A stretch of 64,000 bases of DNA from Fontisphaera persica (GTDB lineage: Bacteria > Verrucomicrobiota > Verrucomicrobiia > Limisphaerales > Fontisphaeraceae): the NCBI RefSeq assembly GCF_024832785.1, contig NZ_CP116615.1:806001-870000 (forward strand), read 5' to 3'. Below, in pieces: positions 11,300-23,010 of the stretch. Below the pieces are notes generated by a model that did no database searches, was not told the origin of the DNA, and worked only from the letters and a program-made list of their open reading frames with translations. Each line of letters opens with the position of its first letter. Position 1 is the stretch's first letter. The position numbers were made by a program, and so were the translations under genes.

Positions 11300-13321
11300 C
11301 TAATCCAATGTCTGCCGCTCCACCAACGGCGGCGGCAAAGCCTCGAGAAAAGAAGAGGGGGGCTGATACTCCGCTCCATACCGCGCCAGGTGCATCTCCG
11401 GATAACACAGGTACAGATACCGCCGGGCGCGCGTCACCGCCACGTAGAACAACCGATATTCCTCATCCAATCCCCCCGGCGATTCCAGCGACCGCCTGCT
11501 GGGAAACATCCCTTCGCTTAACATGATGACAAACACCGCCTGCCATTCCAATCCCTTGGCCTGGTGAATGGACGACAGCACCAGCCGCGGCTTCTCCTCC
11601 GGCCCCGCGCCGGCGGGCGTCGCCTCCACCTCCAGATTCGTCAACAGCGCCATCTGCGTCAAAAACTCCTCCAACGTCCCAAACTTCTCCGCGTAATCCG
11701 CCAGTTGCTCCAAATCCTCGCGCCGGTTGGCCGCCTTGGGGTAGTTCTCGGCCAGGTAATTCTCGTAGCCCGTCTTCATGATGGTCCGGATTAGGTGTGC
11801 GGGGCCTTCGTTCAGGGCCTCGGGCGCCGTCAGCGTGCGCACCACCTCCAGGAAATCCACCCAGGCCGTGGCGCCCCGGGACGGAACCAGCTTGGAACAC
11901 GCCGCCAGCGATGCGGCCACCTGTGCCGGCGCGGCCGATTCCCCCGCCTGTTGCGTCCAATGCCCGTGAAAGGCCAGCCAGAGTTTTTCCGCCGCCTTCT
12001 CGCCAATGCCGGGCAGCATGAGCGCCAGCCGCTTGAAACTGGTTTCATCGCGGGGATTGAAAATCAGGCGCAGAAAGGCCAGCACATCCTTGATGTGCGC
12101 CTGTTCAAAAATGCGCAAACCGCTCGTGATGACAAACGGCAGTTGCGCGCGCGTCAGCTCAAGCTGCAATTCCAGTGAATGAAAATGCGACCGGTACAAC
12201 ACCGCTATCTCATTCAAGGGCATCCCCTCGGCCAGCAGCTCCCGGATTTGATGGGCCACATACGCCGCCTGCTGCTGGCTGTCCAGGCAGGCCACCACCG
12301 CCGGTTTGGGGCCGTCGGGCTGCACTGCCCGCAATTGCTTGCGAAAATTCTCCGGCTGCCCCGCCATGATGGCATTGGCCAGCGCCAGAATCTGCGGGCT
12401 GCTCCGGTAATTATACTCAATCTTGTAGATGCGGGCATCCGGGTAACGCTGGGGAAACTCCAGGATGTTCCGGTATTCCGCCCCCCGCCAGGCATAAATG
12501 CTCTGCGCGTCGTCTCCCACCACCATCAGGTTGCGATGCCGCGCCGCCAGCAGGTCCACCAATTCGCATTGCAGCCGGTTGGTGTCCTGATACTCGTCCA
12601 CCAATATGAACTGAAAACGCCGCTGGTAATGCTCCCGCAACGCCTCATGCCCCTTCAACATTTCCAGCCACTGCACCAGCAAATCATCAAAATCCATCAC
12701 ATTGGCCGCCTGCTTCCGCTTGGCGTAAATCTGAGCAACGCGCTCCGCTGTCGCCAGCACATGCGGCGCCTGGCCCCATTCCGGCCGCCGTTTCATCTGC
12801 TCGACCAGCGTCGTCCGCGTATTCGCCGCCAGCGACAGCAAATCCGCCAGCGCCTCCGGCTTCGGAAAATGTTTGCCGCGCGCCTCCACCTTGGCCTCCC
12901 CCAGGCAGGTCTTCAGCAATCGCACCGCGTCATCCCGGTCCAAAATCGTGAAATCCGGACGGTAGCCCACCTGCTCCGCATGCCGCCGCAAAATCCGCGC
13001 TCCCACCGAATGAAACGTGCCGCCCCACAAACCCGCTTGCTGCGCCCCCGCCAGCGCAGCGGCCCGCCGCATCATCTCCCCCGCCGCCTTGTTGGTGAAG
13101 GTCAGCAGCAGAATGCGATGCGCCGGCACGCCCTGCTCCAGAAGATAAGCCACCCGATACGTGAGCGTGCGCGTCTTGCCGCTGCCCGCTCCCGCCAGCA
13201 CCAGCGCCGGGCCGGGCGCCGCCGTCACCGCCGCCAGTTGCTGCGGATTCAACTCCTCCGCGTAACGGTGGCGCAGCGATTCCAGCGGGCGGAAACATGC
13301 GTTATCGGACGCTTCGCTCAT
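11300..13321 (-). CDS. UvrD/PcrA/Rep-family superfamily 1 DNA helicase
   Basis: An ATP-driven 3'-5' DNA helicase for repair or replication restart. The 673-residue protein has the SF1A motifs in order: AGAGSGKTRTLTYR (Walker A, near residue 41), LTFTNKAAGEMMRR, VDEYQDTN (Walker B), VVGDDAQSIYAWRGAE, SIHQAKGLEWQAVFVI, and EYRLFYVAVTRARRYLYL (motif VI). The C-terminus ends shortly after motif VI and lacks the long tail of many UvrD/PcrA proteins. It could be called pcrA, uvrD or rep; motifs do not separate these. A site-2 protease gene lies upstream on the same strand at 13365. Confidence 0.93.
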   Translation of the reverse strand: MSEASDNACFRPLESLRHRYAEELNPQQLAAVTAAPGPALVLAGAGSGKTRTLTYRVAYLLEQGVPAHRILLLTFTNKAAGEMMRRAAALAGAQQAGLWGGTFHSVGARILRRHAEQVGYRPDFTILDRDDAVRLLKTCLGEAKVEARGKHFPKPEALADLLSLAANTRTTLVEQMKRRPEWGQAPHVLATAERVAQIYAKRKQAANVMDFDDLLVQWLEMLKGHEALREHYQRRFQFILVDEYQDTNRLQCELVDLLAARHRNLMVVGDDAQSIYAWRGAEYRNILEFPQRYPDARIYKIEYNYRSSPQILALANAIMAGQPENFRKQLRAVQPDGPKPAVVACLDSQQQAAYVAHQIRELLAEGMPLNEIAVLYRSHFHSLELQLELTRAQLPFVITSGLRIFEQAHIKDVLAFLRLIFNPRDETSFKRLALMLPGIGEKAAEKLWLAFHGHWTQQAGESAAPAQVAASLAACSKLVPSRGATAWVDFLEVVRTLTAPEALNEGPAHLIRTIMKTGYENYLAENYPKAANRREDLEQLADYAEKFGTLEEFLTQMALLTNLEVEATPAGAGPEEKPRLVLSSIHQAKGLEWQAVFVIMLSEGMFPSRRSLESPGGLDEEYRLFYVAVTRARRYLYLCYPEMHLARYGAEYQPPSSFLEALPPPLVERQTLD

Positions 13322-13364
13322 AATTGGCCATCACCCTTCAGCGAACGCCTCCCGGCGCCGCTCC

Positions 13365-14018
13365 TCACCCCAGTCCCACCCACCCAGCGCCCATCTTGAC
13401 GCTGTTCACCGCCAAATAGGCCAGCCAGGCAAACAACGGCCGTATGTTGATGAGGATTAAGATGAAAATCCATCCCATCTGGCTCAGCCGCAAATACGTC
13501 TCCTCCTTCATCCCAATGATGGAATGCAAGGCGTTGCCTCCATCCAGCGGCGGCACCGGCAGCAGGTTGAAGAAAAACAAAAACATGCTCAGAATCGCCA
13601 GGTCCAGACAGAACTTCACCGCCTCCGGCTGTTCCGCCCATGCTGCCCCCCGGGCGACCAGCAGCACCAGCGCCGTCAAGACCACATTCATCGCCGGCCC
13701 CGCCAGCGTAATCCACAGGCTTTGCCGCCGCCGTTGAGTCAGATTGTTCAAGTCCACCATTACCGGCTTGCCCCACCCAAACAAAAATCCCCCAAACGAC
13801 TTGTCAAAGGCATTGGCCAGGATGAAAAACAACGGCAGAATCACCGTGCCAAAGGTGTCCAGATGCGCCAGCGGATTCAGCGTCACCCGCCCTTGCTCCC
13901 GTTGCGACACATCGCCCATGCGCAACGCCATCCACGCGTGCCCAAACTCGTGAAAAGTCACGATCACCACCAGGCAGATGTACATCAGCAAACCGTCAAT
14001 AAGTGCCTGCGTATCCAT
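13365..14018 (-). CDS. Site-2 protease family (M50) membrane metalloprotease
   Basis: A 217-residue polytopic zinc protease. It shows HEFGHAWMALRMGD (HExxH zinc site) near residue 24 and NLLPVPPLDGGNAL carrying the third zinc ligand, with about five membrane segments. This compact group of M50 proteins is common in bacteria and its substrates are generally unknown. It lacks the PDZ domain of RseP. The helicase gene follows 43 bp downstream on the same strand. It is divergent from ispH, with a strong palindrome in the shared upstream region. Confidence 0.9.
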   Translation of the reverse strand: MDTQALIDGLLMYICLVVIVTFHEFGHAWMALRMGDVSQREQGRVTLNPLAHLDTFGTVILPLFFILANAFDKSFGGFLFGWGKPVMVDLNNLTQRRRQSLWITLAGPAMNVVLTALVLLVARGAAWAEQPEAVKFCLDLAILSMFLFFFNLLPVPPLDGGNALHSIIGMKEETYLRLSQMGWIFILILINIRPLFAWLAYLAVNSVKMGAGWVGLG

Positions 14019-14121
14019 CGGCCCCAGAAATTAACGGCGCCCCGCCCACGCGTCGAGGGCAGAATCATTCCCCACCTTCGCCACAGAAAATTTGAACGTG
14101 ACTGCGCCGGCCAGCGTCCTA

Positions 14122-17827: not shown

Positions 17828-17871
17828 AGGTCACGAGCCAAAAACCCCCAAAAAGGGGGGGCTCGTGACCT
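17828..17871. repeat. Long inverted repeat in the CRISPR leader region
   Basis: AGGTCACGAGCC at 17828-17839 and its perfect complement GGCTCGTGACCT at 17860-17871 flank an inner CCCCC-AAAAA-GGGGG hairpin. Ten bases of the right arm (CTCGTGACCT) recur as a direct repeat at 17964-17973, 102 bp downstream and about 45 bp before the first CRISPR repeat. The pair could be binding sites for leader-recognition or integration factors, or the palindrome could be a second terminator. Confidence 0.6.
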
Positions 17872-18018
17872 AAGTCATAAACCATTGATGGAGAATAAGA
17901 TGCTCATACTTGAGAAAATCTGTATCGTTAAAGAAGCAAACGGCGTGCCAACACAAAAATGGCCTCGTGACCTGGAAAACACTTGCGCCCTTGCGCCACA
18001 ATGGGTTACAAAGGTGCT
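17872..18018 (+). promoter_or_regulatory. Probable CRISPR leader
   Basis: A 147-bp noncoding stretch lies directly before the first repeat, on the side where all repeats are perfect. The opposite end of the array shows decayed repeats, so this side is inferred to be the leader and the array is inferred to be transcribed left to right. It is richer in A and T than its surroundings and contains the second copy of CTCGTGACCT. I could not pick a convincing promoter in it. Confidence 0.6.
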
Positions 18019-21000
18019 GTCGGGAACGCGGTGAATGCCGAAAGGCAATGGAGACTCTTTAGCCCGTCTATATATTTTAGAAGGGCCATGATGCGTCGGG
18101 AACGCGGTGAATGCCGAAAGGCAATGGAGACACTGAGCCCTTCCACATATTGTAGAAGGGCCATGACCCGTCGGGAACGCGGTGAATGCCGAAAGGCAAT
18201 GGAGACCCCGCGGTGGACGCGCCGAACCAAAGGCCAAATCGGGTCGGTCGGGAACGCGGTGAATGCCGAAAGGCAATGGAGACCACTGAGCCCTTCTATA
18301 TACTTTAGAAGGGCTTCGACCCTGTCGGGAACGCGGTGAATGCCGAAAGGCAATGGAGACATTTGCCCTTGCCCTTCTTGACTTCGGCGGCGGTAACTTG
18401 GTCGGGAACGCGGTGAATGCCGAAAGGCAATGGAGACCAAAAACGCAGGAGACTAATCCGCCAATTGGCGGATAGTCGGGAACGCGGTGAATGCCGAAAG
18501 GCAATGGAGACATTAAGCTGGCGGTATCTTCCGCCAGCTGCTGGACTTCTTCGTCGGGAACGCGGTGAATGCCGAAAGGCAATGGAGACTCAAGCCCCCT
18601 CTTTTCAAAGAGGGGCACATTAACCAGCGTCGGGAACGCGGTGAATGCCGAAAGGCAATGGAGACCAACTCTGGAAAGTCATGCGTTGTGGGCTGCAAAA
18701 ACCTGGTCGGGAACGCGGTGAATGCCGAAAGGCAATGGAGACGGGACGTTGATGAAGCCGCCAGTCGGCTTCATCCCGGGTCGGGAACGCGGTGAATGCC
18801 GAAAGGCAATGGAGACAACTTGCCGCCGAAGGCGCCATTGCTCCAGGCCATCCCTGTCGGGAACGCGGTGAATGCCGAAAGGCAATGGAGACCTGTGTAG
18901 GCAAGGGCGACTATTTCTTGCCCTTGCCCTGTCGGGAACGCGGTGAATGCCGAAAGGCAATGGAGACCAATTGGCGGCTAGCTGGACGTTGGCCAGACGC
19001 CCGCGTCGGGAACGCGGTGAATGCCGAAAGGCAATGGAGACCTTTAATATGACCCAAATGCACCGGACGGCCTCACCGTCTTGTCGGGAACGCGGTGAAT
19101 GCCGAAAGGCAATGGAGACTGTTCAGCACGTGCCAAAGGCAACGCACTGCGTGCCCGTGTCGGGAACGCGGTGAATGCCGAAAGGCAATGGAGACTGGAT
19201 TTTCACCTCGACCCCTGCGGCCTGCGCCAACCTTGTCGGGAACGCGGTGAATGCCGAAAGGCAATGGAGACCGGCCGCCGACAGACGCTCGGCGGCGCAG
19301 GCGAAGTCGGGAACGCGGTGAATGCCGAAAGGCAATGGAGACGCTCGGCGGCGCACGCAAAACGCAGTAAGCTTATCCGCCAAGTCGGGAACGCGGTGAA
19401 TGCCGAAAGGCAATGGAGACCCCCATCTTTTCATAGAAGGGGACATTGATAAACATCTCGGTCGGGAACGCGGTGAATGCCGAAAGGCAATGGAGACACC
19501 GCGTGCCCGTCATGGCCTTCGAGGCCCCTTTTCTCGAGTCGGGAACGCGGTGAATGCCGAAAGGCAATGGAGACGGGATTTCTCCCCGCAGCATCTGCTC
19601 ATTCAACCCCATAGGTCGGGAACGCGGTGAATGCCGAAAGGCAATGGAGACCTGCGGCCGCCGACAGCCGTTCGGCGGCGCAGGCGAACGTCGGGAACGC
19701 GGTGAATGCCGAAAGGCAATGGAGACCTTCTATATATTTTAGAAGGGCTTGGACTCTTTCGTGCTTGTCGGGAACGCGGTGAATGCCGAAAGGCAATGGA
19801 GACGCCGAACCCACTCCGACAAAGCTGAGTCCTCTACTGAGGGGTCGGGAACGCGGTGAATGCCGAAAGGCAATGGAGACAAGGCAAGGGAGACTGGTTA
19901 TTTGCCCTTGCCCTTGACCGTCGGGAACGCGGTGAATGCCGAAAGGCAATGGAGACCCCTGGCGCTATTTACCTCACTTGTGGTCAGCCGACGTCGGGAA
20001 CGCGGTGAATGCCGAAAGGCAATGGAGACCACGCATCATCTGCTCATTTAGACTTCCCATAGTCCGGTCGGGAACGCGGTGAATGCCGAAAGGCAATGGA
20101 GACGGAGGAGTCCTCATTTGAGGACTCAGCTGTGCTGAATGCCTGTCGGGAACGCGGTGAATGCCGAAAGGCAATGGAGACATTCCCGCCATCAACCGCG
20201 CCAGGGCCTCCCTGGCGCTGTCGGGAACGCGGTGAATGCCGAAAGGCAATGGAGACACCGTGCCTAAAATCTAAGATTTTTTTCGGAAACGTCAAAGTCG
20301 GGAACGCGGTGAATGCCGAAAGGCAATGGAGACGCAACGGACTGCGTCACCGTAATTTCCTTCAAGGCCCCTCGTCGGGAACGCGGTGAATGCCGAAAGG
20401 CAATGGAGACGTGATAACCCACTGGGCTTCACTGTCGGCGGGGATGAGGTCGGGAACGCGGTGAATGCCGAAAGGCAATGGAGACAAACCCAATCATCGT
20501 GATGCCCAATGCAGCCACTGCATTGTCGGGAACGCGGTGAATGCCGAAAGGCAATGGAGACTTTGGTTCAGACCGGCTTTGTCCAAACCGTATTCATAGT
20601 CGGGAACGCGGTGAATGCCGAAAGGCAATGGAGACTCCAAACTGGTTAAGAACCATGCGTAAACACGTCGGGAACGCGGTGAATGCCGAAAGGCAATGGA
20701 GACAAAAACCACGCCAACGGCTCCCCCTCCCCCACCCCGCCGTTGTCGGGAACGCGGTGAATGCCGAAAGGCAATGGAGACTGGTTTGACCTGCGCCTGA
20801 ACTACCTGCGCCAGGAAACGTCGGGAACGCGGTGAATGCCGAAAGGCAATGGAGACAACCGACCTTCTAACCATCATTTTACGCCTTTTTCCTCTGTCGG
20901 GAACGCGGTGAATGCCGAAAGGCAATGGAGACAGTTCGCCGTCAGAGGGGTGCTGACTAATCGCCCCCCAAGTCGGGAACGCGGTGAATGCCGAAAGGCA

Positions 21001-22296
21001 ATGGAGACCCCATGCTCAATGAAGTTGAGCAGGGCTTCCACTCTTTCAGTCGGGAACGCGGTGAATGCCGAAAGGCAATGGAGACTAATAAATCCCACCC
21101 CCGAAATAAACCCGCGTAAAATGCGTCGGGAACGCGGTGAATGCCGAAAGGCAATGGAGACATTTTTAACACTGATTTGGTGTTGCTTCGTGAGCGCAGG
21201 GTCGGGAACGCGGTGAATGCCGAAAGGCAATGGAGACCGCTCGCCAAACAATTACCTAGTGGGGGTGTTGGGATTTCAGTCGGGAACGCGGTGAATGCCG
21301 AAAGGCAATGGAGACGCATCCGTCCCACTAATGACCCACAAAGCCTCCCCAGTCGGGAACGCGGTGAATGCCGAAAGGCAATGGAGACCCCTGCTTGAGA
21401 CAGTAGGGGAGTGTTGCCTTTTTTCAAGGTCGGGAACGCGGTGAATGCCGAAAGGCAATGGAGACCGCCTTAATAAATCTGTATAAGGCTTCCAGGTGCT
21501 CCGAAGTCGGGAACGCGGTGAATGCCGAAAGGCAATGGAGACCCGCCATTGTTCTAGGGCATCCCTGCAGACCGCAGGGAGTCGGGAACGCGGTGAATGC
21601 CGAAAGGCAATGGAGACAGATGGCGGCCAGAGTTAGCAGTTGATGAGGGGTGAGGGTGGGTCGGGAACGCGGTGAATGCCGAAAGGCAATGGAGACGGAG
21701 CATCGCCTAAGATAACGAGATATTCCCACCTCGAAGTCGGGAACGCGGTGAATGCCGAAAGGCAATGGAGACGGGACCCAGTTTGGGTCCTCCAACTTTT
21801 TTGCTAGGTTTTGTCGGGAATGCGGTGAATGCCGAAAGGCAATGGAGACGACGCGCCATTTCGAGCCGTCGGCCCGGATGACGTACTGTCGGGAATGCGG
21901 TGAATGCCGAAAGGCAATGGCGACCGGAAAAGGACAAACCCCGCCATCCGCTTGGCCTCGGCGTCGGGAACGCGGTGAATGCCGAAAGGCAATGGCGACC
22001 ATTTTGCCGCATGAGACTGGTGCTGCGAATCAGGGTTGGTCGGGAACGCGGTGAATGCCGAAAGGCAATGGCGACAACACGACCCAGAGCAAGAGAAGTG
22101 TACATCGGTTGTGAGTCGGGAACGCGGTGAATGCCGAAAGGCAATGGCGACAAGCGTCCGCCGAAACGCGGCGCGGCATCCGTGCCCGTGTCGGGAACGC
22201 GGTGAATGCAGAAAGGCAATGGCGACCAAAGCATGGACGAAAAGGCTTTGTCACTGCGGGACATGAAGTCGGGAACGCGGTGAATGCCGAAAGGCG
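18019..22296 (+). CRISPR. Large orphan CRISPR array, 57 repeats of 37 bp and 56 spacers
   Basis: A 37-bp repeat begins GTCGGGAACGCGG, has a central TGCC-GAAA-GGCA hairpin with a GNRA-type tetraloop, and ends AATGGAGAC. It occurs 57 times, from 18019 to a truncated last copy starting at 22268. Spacers are mostly 36-42 nt, with one of 31 nt (20636-20666). The first 50 repeats look identical. Copies from 21813 onward carry changes: AATGCGG for AACGCGG at 21813 and 21888, GGCGAC for GGAGAC from 21888 on, and CAGAAAGG at 22190. That places the old, leader-distal end on the right. No cas gene lies within the 18 kb to the left or 41 kb to the right. Repeat length and sequence do not let me fix a type. 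Spacer content is unusual and is described in the findings. Confidence 0.99.
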
Positions 22297-23010
22297 GAGA
22301 AGTGTTCAGTGTGCAGTTGGCAGTGTTCAGTAGGGATTGGTAGTCGGCGGCGCTGGGAGAAGGGGAGCCGTGGAGAAGTTTCAAGTTTCAAGTTTCAAGT
22401 TGGAAGCGGCAGCCCCTTCCCCCTCGCTTAAGGCAACCGGAAGGACTGAACACTGAAAACTGAACACTCCCCCAAACGCCGCCAGGCGTGAAGGGGCAAA
22501 CTCCCCTCCGCAGGAGGGGCAGTGAATGCCGAAAGGCGGAGAAGTGTTCAGTGTTCAGTTGGCAGTGTTCAGTAGGGATTGGTAGTCGGCGGCGCTGGGA
22601 GAAGGGGAGCCGTGGAGAAGTTTCAAGTTTCAAGTTTCAAGTTGGAAGCGGCAGCCCCTTCCCCCTCGCTTAAGGCAACCGGAAGGACTGAACACTGAAA
22701 ACTGAACACTCCCCCAAACGCCGCCAGGCGTGAAGGGGCAAACTCCCCTCCGCAGGAGGGGCAGTGAATGCCGAAAGGCGGAGAAGTGTTCAGTGTTCAG
22801 TTGGCAGTGTTCAGTAGGGAAGGGTTGTCGGTGGCGTTAGGGGAAGGGGAGCCGTAGGGAAGTTTCAAGTTTGAAGTTTCAAGTTTGAAGCGGCAGCCCC
22901 TTCTCCTTCGCCTAAGGCAACCGGAAGGTCTGAATACTGAACACTGAAAACTGAACACTCCCCCGCACGCCGTCAGGCGTGCAGGGGCAAACTCCCCTCC
23001 GCAGGAGGGG
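22280..23010. repeat. Three tandem copies of a 242-bp unit seeded by a CRISPR repeat fragment
   Basis: Units start at about 22280, 22522 and 22764. Each begins GTGAATGCCGAAAGGC, the middle of the CRISPR repeat, so the truncated last repeat was captured in the duplication. The first two copies are nearly identical; the third is more diverged. Each unit holds GTTCAGTGTTCAGT-type motifs near one end and their complement near the other, a TTTCAAGTTTCAAG run between, and a CCCTCC-GCA-GGAGGG hairpin at the end. The open frames here repeat with the units and are not genes. Confidence 0.92.

Follow-up and report, generated by a model that had tools for sequence, protein, structure and literature searches.

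The spacers of a CRISPR array in the window, that is, the 64,000-nt stretch analysed here (positions 806001-870000 of a genome that forms a single contig of 4.73 Mb and is 97.16% complete), and of three sister arrays elsewhere in the genome are for the most part copied, in antisense, from two small genes rich in hairpins that belong to a single family of mobile elements. With modest confidence, we lean towards the explanation that, in a type III-B system lacking a reverse transcriptase (RT), selection has favoured spacers that target the transcripts of one family of elements, which are probably DNA. A single genome gives overlapping reads of two target genes, which makes the target searchable both by protein profile and by DNA pattern. 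As far as the open-access full text that could be searched goes, no published report of this spacer family was found.

Spacers from four arrays tile two small genes

The window array (Table 1) has spacers of 31-42 nt, and the same repeat recurs in arrays A437 (27 spacers), A1702 (36) and A3546 (47), giving 166 spacers in total, 56 of them in the window array; exact repeat cores in the genome number 125 plus 3. When all spacers were compared with one another, 160 same-orientation pairs and 10 opposite-orientation pairs, the latter mostly between hairpin spacers, scored at least 14, and no shuffled pair did. Reverse-complemented and overlapped, the spacers yield gene B, of about 119 codons, which opens with MKKHERV and closes with KGKGKK ahead of a stop codon, and gene C, of about 100 codons or more, which ends in RRNPLPEE or variants of it before its stop. 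Of a gene A there is a start only (MGSLNEQMLRGEI); gene C may begin here, the two then being one gene. Scored against these composites, 92 of the 166 spacers reach at least 30 (shuffled, 0/166), and a further 13, assigned manually or through a stop-codon motif, bring the family to 105 of 166. The composites were built from the very spacers that were then scored on them, a circularity from which the all-against-all comparison is free. The layout of spacers is ungapped, and spacer A1702_7 was placed on gene C though it carries a gene-B tail.

Differences between overlapping spacers fall mostly at third codon positions: the rates at positions 1, 2 and 3 are 0.20, 0.09 and 0.41 in gene B (178 overlapping pairs) and 0.22, 0.11 and 0.50 in gene C (37 pairs), which shows a diverse source whose proteins are under selection. 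A true coding family with many variants has thus been encountered repeatedly.

A preliminary description had read six reverse-strand peptides in the window array as versions of one homologous coding segment. All six peptides are confirmed (spacers 1, 2, 4, 23, 40 and 46) and the segment is codons 3-18 of gene B, the sixth spacer being a marginal member: the first five score 41-62 on the gene-B composite, and spacer 46 alone is marginal because its score of 28 is also attained by 2/166 shuffled and 10/166 antisense spacers. What that description missed was the extent of the pattern, since the spacers of four arrays cover all of gene B and another gene besides. Ten spacers scoring at least 30 overlap codons 3-18 by at least 20 nt, five of them in the window and the others in the sister arrays. 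The proposal that this segment is an acquisition hot spot fails, as the midpoints of gene-B spacers are evenly spread (chi-square p 0.88; 62 spacers, ten bins).

Table 1. Features of the window array (window coordinates)
Feature	Position	Strand	Description
CRISPR array	18019..22304	+	57 repeats of 37 nt (last degenerate), 56 spacers; from repeat/spacer extraction
Probable leader	17830..18018	+	Based only on its place beside the conserved array end
Spacer 1	18056..18094	-	Gene B codons 7-17, IMALLKYIDGLK; hairpin, single mismatch
Spacer 2	18132..18169	-	Gene B codons 7-18, VMALLQYVEGLS; hairpin, single U-G pair
Spacer 4	18284..18323	-	Gene B codons 6-18, RVEALLKYIEGLS; 10-bp stem, mismatch-free
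Spacers 6 and 7 and intervening repeat	18438..18552	-	Gene B codons 62-72 and 21-33
Spacer 8	18590..18628	-	Gene C, LVNVPLFEKRGL; hairpin
Spacer 12	18893..18930	-	Gene B stop (GKGKK*) in hairpin loop; 3' arm non-coding
Spacer 21	19575..19614	-	Gene A start, MGLNEQMLRGEI
Spacer 23	19727..19766	-	Gene B codons 3-15, KHERVQALLKYIE; spacer end cuts stem
Spacer 40	21009..21048	-	Gene B codons 5-15, ERVEALLNFIEHG; hairpin, shifted register
Spacer 46	21466..21505	-	SEHLEALYRFIKA; marginal member, score 28

All 92 clear members share the same orientation and are antisense to the message. Six of them reach 30 in antisense scoring too, each scoring higher in sense, and none of the 166 spacers scored does so in antisense alone. 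The left end of the window array is probably its newest, and variant repeats are confined to the right end, from 21813 on. Family members make up 26/28 spacers of the leader-side half of the window array, 10/13 in A437, 15/18 in A1702 and 17/23 in A3546; the corresponding distal halves hold 9/28, 8/14, 10/18 and 10/24, and the twelve oldest spacers of A3546 include no family member.

Hairpins in the source genes

The preliminary description also held that each of the six spacers rebuilds a stem over the same codons, with pairing preserved as the sequence changes. The first part of this stands in that a stem does cover the same codons in each; the pairs themselves are not the same in all, for the hairpin axis lies at nt 37 of gene B in spacers 1, 2, 4 and 23 and the pairing register of spacer 40 is shifted to axis 38. 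Against dinucleotide shuffles, spacers 1, 2, 4, 23, 40 and 46 give folding z of -3.59, -4.05, -3.63, -1.58, -2.10 and -1.81 (p 0.010, 0.010, 0.010, 0.075, 0.035 and 0.055). Under synonymous recoding, a null that preserves the protein, spacers 1, 2, 4 and 40 are significant (p 0.007-0.026) and spacer 23 is not (z +1.85); spacer 46 was left out of this scoring and of the hairpin layout. Spacers 6 and 7 hold two more hairpins, ATCCGCC/GGCGGAT and AGCTGGCGG/CCGCCAGCT, and among the gene-B variants hairpin axes recur at nt 37, 62, 85, 191, 229-234, 284, 325 and 351-357.

As to preserved pairing, two-sided changes retain a Watson-Crick pair in 12/27 cells vs 44/211 in slid controls (Fisher p 0.014, the cells not being independent), which weakly supports conserved pairing, but 123/166 one-sided changes break the pair. 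The proportion that retain one, 43/166, is below that of every slid control, a low retention that arises because a single change in a Watson-Crick pair is rescued only by G-U. Around the gene B stop codon, the 5' arm, which is coding, and the 3' arm, which is not, co-vary in several of eight variants, judged by eye. Strict covariation in the hairpins is thus weak.

The folding of the family as a whole is clearer. Its spacers have a mean z of -1.25, with 31/99 at p < 0.05, vs -0.35 and 5/67 for the other spacers of the same arrays, which may include unrecognised family members; host coding 40-mers (n=150) average +0.06, and reference windows give -0.86 for MS2 and -0.20 for phiX. With synonymous recoding the family mean is -0.85 (19/85 at p < 0.05), and in the same run MS2 gives -0.63 (14/87), phiX -0.25 (5/87) and the host -0.15 (7/87). 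Recoding of whole coding sets puts the RNA phages at -0.84 (MS2), -0.58 (Qbeta), -0.34 (PP7) and -0.31 (phi6 S), and the DNA genomes at -0.19 (lambda), -0.08 (Pf1 and phiX alike) and -0.06 (host). Because the spacers overlap, tests that assume independence overstate significance; averaged over 18 bins, the family z is -0.89 with a standard error of 0.20. Among 720-nt stretches of lambda, phiX, Pf1 and the host, 1/60 is as low as the family, and the ssRNA phages, too, reach that level in some stretches only (minima -0.92, -0.85 and -0.77). The family genes therefore fold about as strongly as MS2 RNA by the synonymous-recoding null, and the hairpins are real, which bears out the earlier claim of a structured source message, here at a level seen in ssRNA phages.

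Could the hairpins instead be an artefact of acquisition, the machinery favouring foldable fragments and the likeness of the peptides being due to chance? The 31 significantly folded family spacers are what such a preference would leave, but the other spacers of the same arrays fold ordinarily, gene B is covered evenly and not at its hairpins, and the codon-position pattern and a likeness far above shuffles speak for a true gene. Even sampling suggests that the hairpins are a feature of the genes themselves and do not reflect a preference of adaptation for folded pieces. The results already oppose the artefact, which we hold to be very improbable; all that could survive of it is a sampling bias below what these data can resolve.

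CRISPR-Cas loci of the genome

No cas gene was found among the part of the window's ORFs that was scanned. A1702 (37 repeats; locus L014) sits between Cas1-Cas2 and CARF/Cmr genes, and these type III-B genes lie about 0.9 Mb from the window array. Near A1702, NCBIfam models for Cmr1, Cmr2/Cas10, Cmr4, Cmr6, Cas1 and Cas2 match above their cut-offs and that for Cmr3 under its cut-off, and Cmr5 had no match in the one small ORF tested. Two adjacent TIGR02710-like CARF proteins are also encoded there (L014:9835-12460), one above and one below the cut-off, and the weaker-scoring of them is Card1-like. By its gene content, with Cas10/Cmr2 together with RAMP genes, the A1702 locus is a type III-B (Cmr) system. 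Its Cas1 is unfused (a 374-aa frame), and the RT models PF00078 and TIGR04416 had no match in the whole genome.

A second CRISPR locus encodes a Cas9-like HNH/RuvC protein and Cas1, next to an array of 81 repeats and 79 spacers (L018:11255-17955). An apparent transposase gene, seen by eye, breaks this array at about 12580-14030. One of its 79 spacers, II_15657, matches gene B with a score of 18, which 0/60 shuffled sets attain, and translates as AICREGLEQ in the frame of gene B codons 94-102. Two other observations concern the array as a whole: two of its spacers derive from the two strands of a single sequence, the pattern that dsDNA sources would give, and the family's share differs sharply between systems (105/166 type III spacers vs 1/79 here; Fisher p 7e-24).

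DNA or RNA as the source

The gene-B spacer in the Cas9-type array implies a DNA source, and overall we judge it likely that the source is DNA, ssDNA included. Type III systems of the Cmr kind recognise messages, Cas10 synthesises cyclic oligoadenylates and CARF effectors come into action. Under the explanation that we favour, the window array would serve the RT-less type III-B system whose genes adjoin an array of the same repeat, and the four arrays would record repeated meetings with one diverse mobile-element family, a DNA phage or plasmid being the likeliest candidate. Cas1-Cas2 would capture DNA fragments, but only spacers antisense to the two small transcribed genes, B and C, would protect, because Cmr recognises RNA, and selection would so leave a purely antisense set. 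Cmr would bind the B and C messages, Cas10 would then produce cyclic oligoadenylates and the CARF effectors, one of them Card1-like, would act. The hairpins would belong to these messages and be sampled along with the rest, the CRISPR machinery neither making nor picking them.

Such an arrangement is not without precedent. In the RT-less type III system of Thermus thermophilus, selection leads to a strong strand bias, with most spacers from a narrow hot region of one phage (Artamonova et al. 2020, PMC7515739). This precedent explains both the strand bias and the focus on particular genes here without recourse to RNA. The present case differs in its scale, in that 105/166 spacers in four arrays come from two structured genes and a start, in many source variants. 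It also differs in a way that counts against a DNA source: no sense-strand member is left in the arrays, unlike the unselected Thermus spacers, which come from both strands of a known phage (PMC7515739). Three further points weigh against DNA, namely that only one of the 60 DNA-phage and host stretches equals the structure of genes B and C, that the unequal shares of the two systems would be odd for a common dsDNA element, and that the DNA collections searched gave only weak or chance matches.

These same points favour an RNA replicon, either an ssRNA phage or a small satellite-like RNA that would span about 1 kb and carry two small genes, captured through an unseen RT or by an RT-independent route; we regard this as possible, though doubtful. 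The family's structure equals that of MS2, exceeds that of Qbeta, PP7 and phi6 S and is far from that of Pf1 and phiX, all 92 clear members are antisense, the family dominates the type III arrays and is nearly absent from the Cas9-type array, and the DNA collections searched hold no source. If all 166 spacers sampled a single source evenly, 105 spacers on about 0.75 kb would suggest a total near 1.2 kb, which is an estimate. Furthermore, 9/63 Obelisk-matching spacers are reported as assigned to type III systems (PMC13096302). Set against this are the two RT models without a match in a nearly complete genome, the unfused Cas1 and the one Cas9-array spacer from gene B; the first and last of these also tell against the RNA-phage source put forward in the preliminary description. 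Nor do the stems carry a clear RNA-strand signature, given the types of their mismatches (G-T 7, A-C 3, other 19) and the similar folding energies of the sense and antisense strands (p 0.21), although phiX also folds lower in its sense strand and so the energy test cannot separate RNA from DNA. One DNA stretch in the 60 is equally folded, and PP7 is overall less folded than the family. The GDD polymerase motif is absent from sense translations of the 166 spacers, a weak test given how short they are, and a levivirus coat was rejected as the identity of gene B, which showed no similarity to three such coats (profile probability 0.2%, with shallow profiles and for gene B only).

Comparison with known systems leaves a similar picture. 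Leviviricetes (MS2, Qbeta, PP7) likewise have coding sequence in local hairpins to a similar degree, but no replicase motif appears in these short spacers and no coat similarity in gene B. RT-Cas1 type III-B systems share the effector and enigmatic targets (PMC5513706, PMC5576922), whereas here no RT was found and Cas1 is unfused. Obelisks and viroid-like RNAs resemble the family as small coding, structured replicons that may be a source of spacers (PMC13096302); here, however, the hairpins are local and the Cas9-array match argues for DNA. The specific proposal of an RNA replicon of about 1 kb, with two small protein genes folded into hairpins over their whole length, caught by a type III-B system that has no detectable RT of its own, is in our estimate rather unlikely. 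Were it true, it would mean that memory can be acquired from RNA along a route so far unrecognised and that a verrucomicrobe-like host harbours RNA parasites of a new class, and an RNA source would provide a direct test of RNA memory in RT-less type III systems. A DNA source would be an element with RNA-phage-like folded genes, itself odd.

An ssDNA phage that packages its coding strand, itself folded, could reconcile the fixed polarity, the small genes and the coding-strand hairpins with a dsDNA form presumably open to sampling by the Cas9 system. Yet phiX and Pf1 lack such structure (z -0.08 each; phiX -0.25 in another run), searches gave no convincing phage match, and we consider this origin improbable.

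No convincing source of the family was found in the phage, plasmid, IMG/VR and genome collections, of which IMG/VR and genome_contigs were searched by short peptide or DNA patterns, genome_contigs for gene B. The phage matches are all weak: seven records at E 1-9, one at E 7 and three at E 0.2-0.6, these last spanning one lysine-rich, low-complexity A437 spacer. PHROGs gave one weak match (E 0.28), Pfam none for the family proteins, and PDB sequences two for gene B (E 0.33-0.88) and none for gene C. A self-targeting or chromosomal source was rejected, as the composite's 32 own-genome matches (E <= 10) lie in the four arrays with one exception, a weak match at 3591477 (E 0.35). Pattern matches in IMG/VR (L029, L044 and L045) were judged to be chance.

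Two other genomes of the host family have no match to the genes. Across the phylum and class, gene B matches 8/387 genomes at E <= 0.01 and gene C 2/384 at E <= 0.001, the own genome included in each count; the gene-C locus L047 is a patchy alignment that was judged to be chance. No CRISPR array is present at L033, L037 and L038, the three of the seven non-own gene-B loci that were largely checked, with L032 and L034-L036 outside this check.

Some further observations concern the repeat and the surroundings of the window array. The repeat core of these arrays is also found once on a small contig of a Verrucomicrobia MAG from groundwater (L030:1375-1407), with what by eye is a degenerate second copy close by; this makes a verrucomicrobe the probable host. 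Directly 3' of the window array, at 22277-23002, lie three tandem units of 242 nt, each of which includes part of the CRISPR repeat (GTGAATGCCGAAAGGC). Elsewhere in the window, a UvrD-like helicase (11303-13321, reverse strand) has strong matches to models of DRT- and GajB-associated helicases and is probably an ordinary UvrD.
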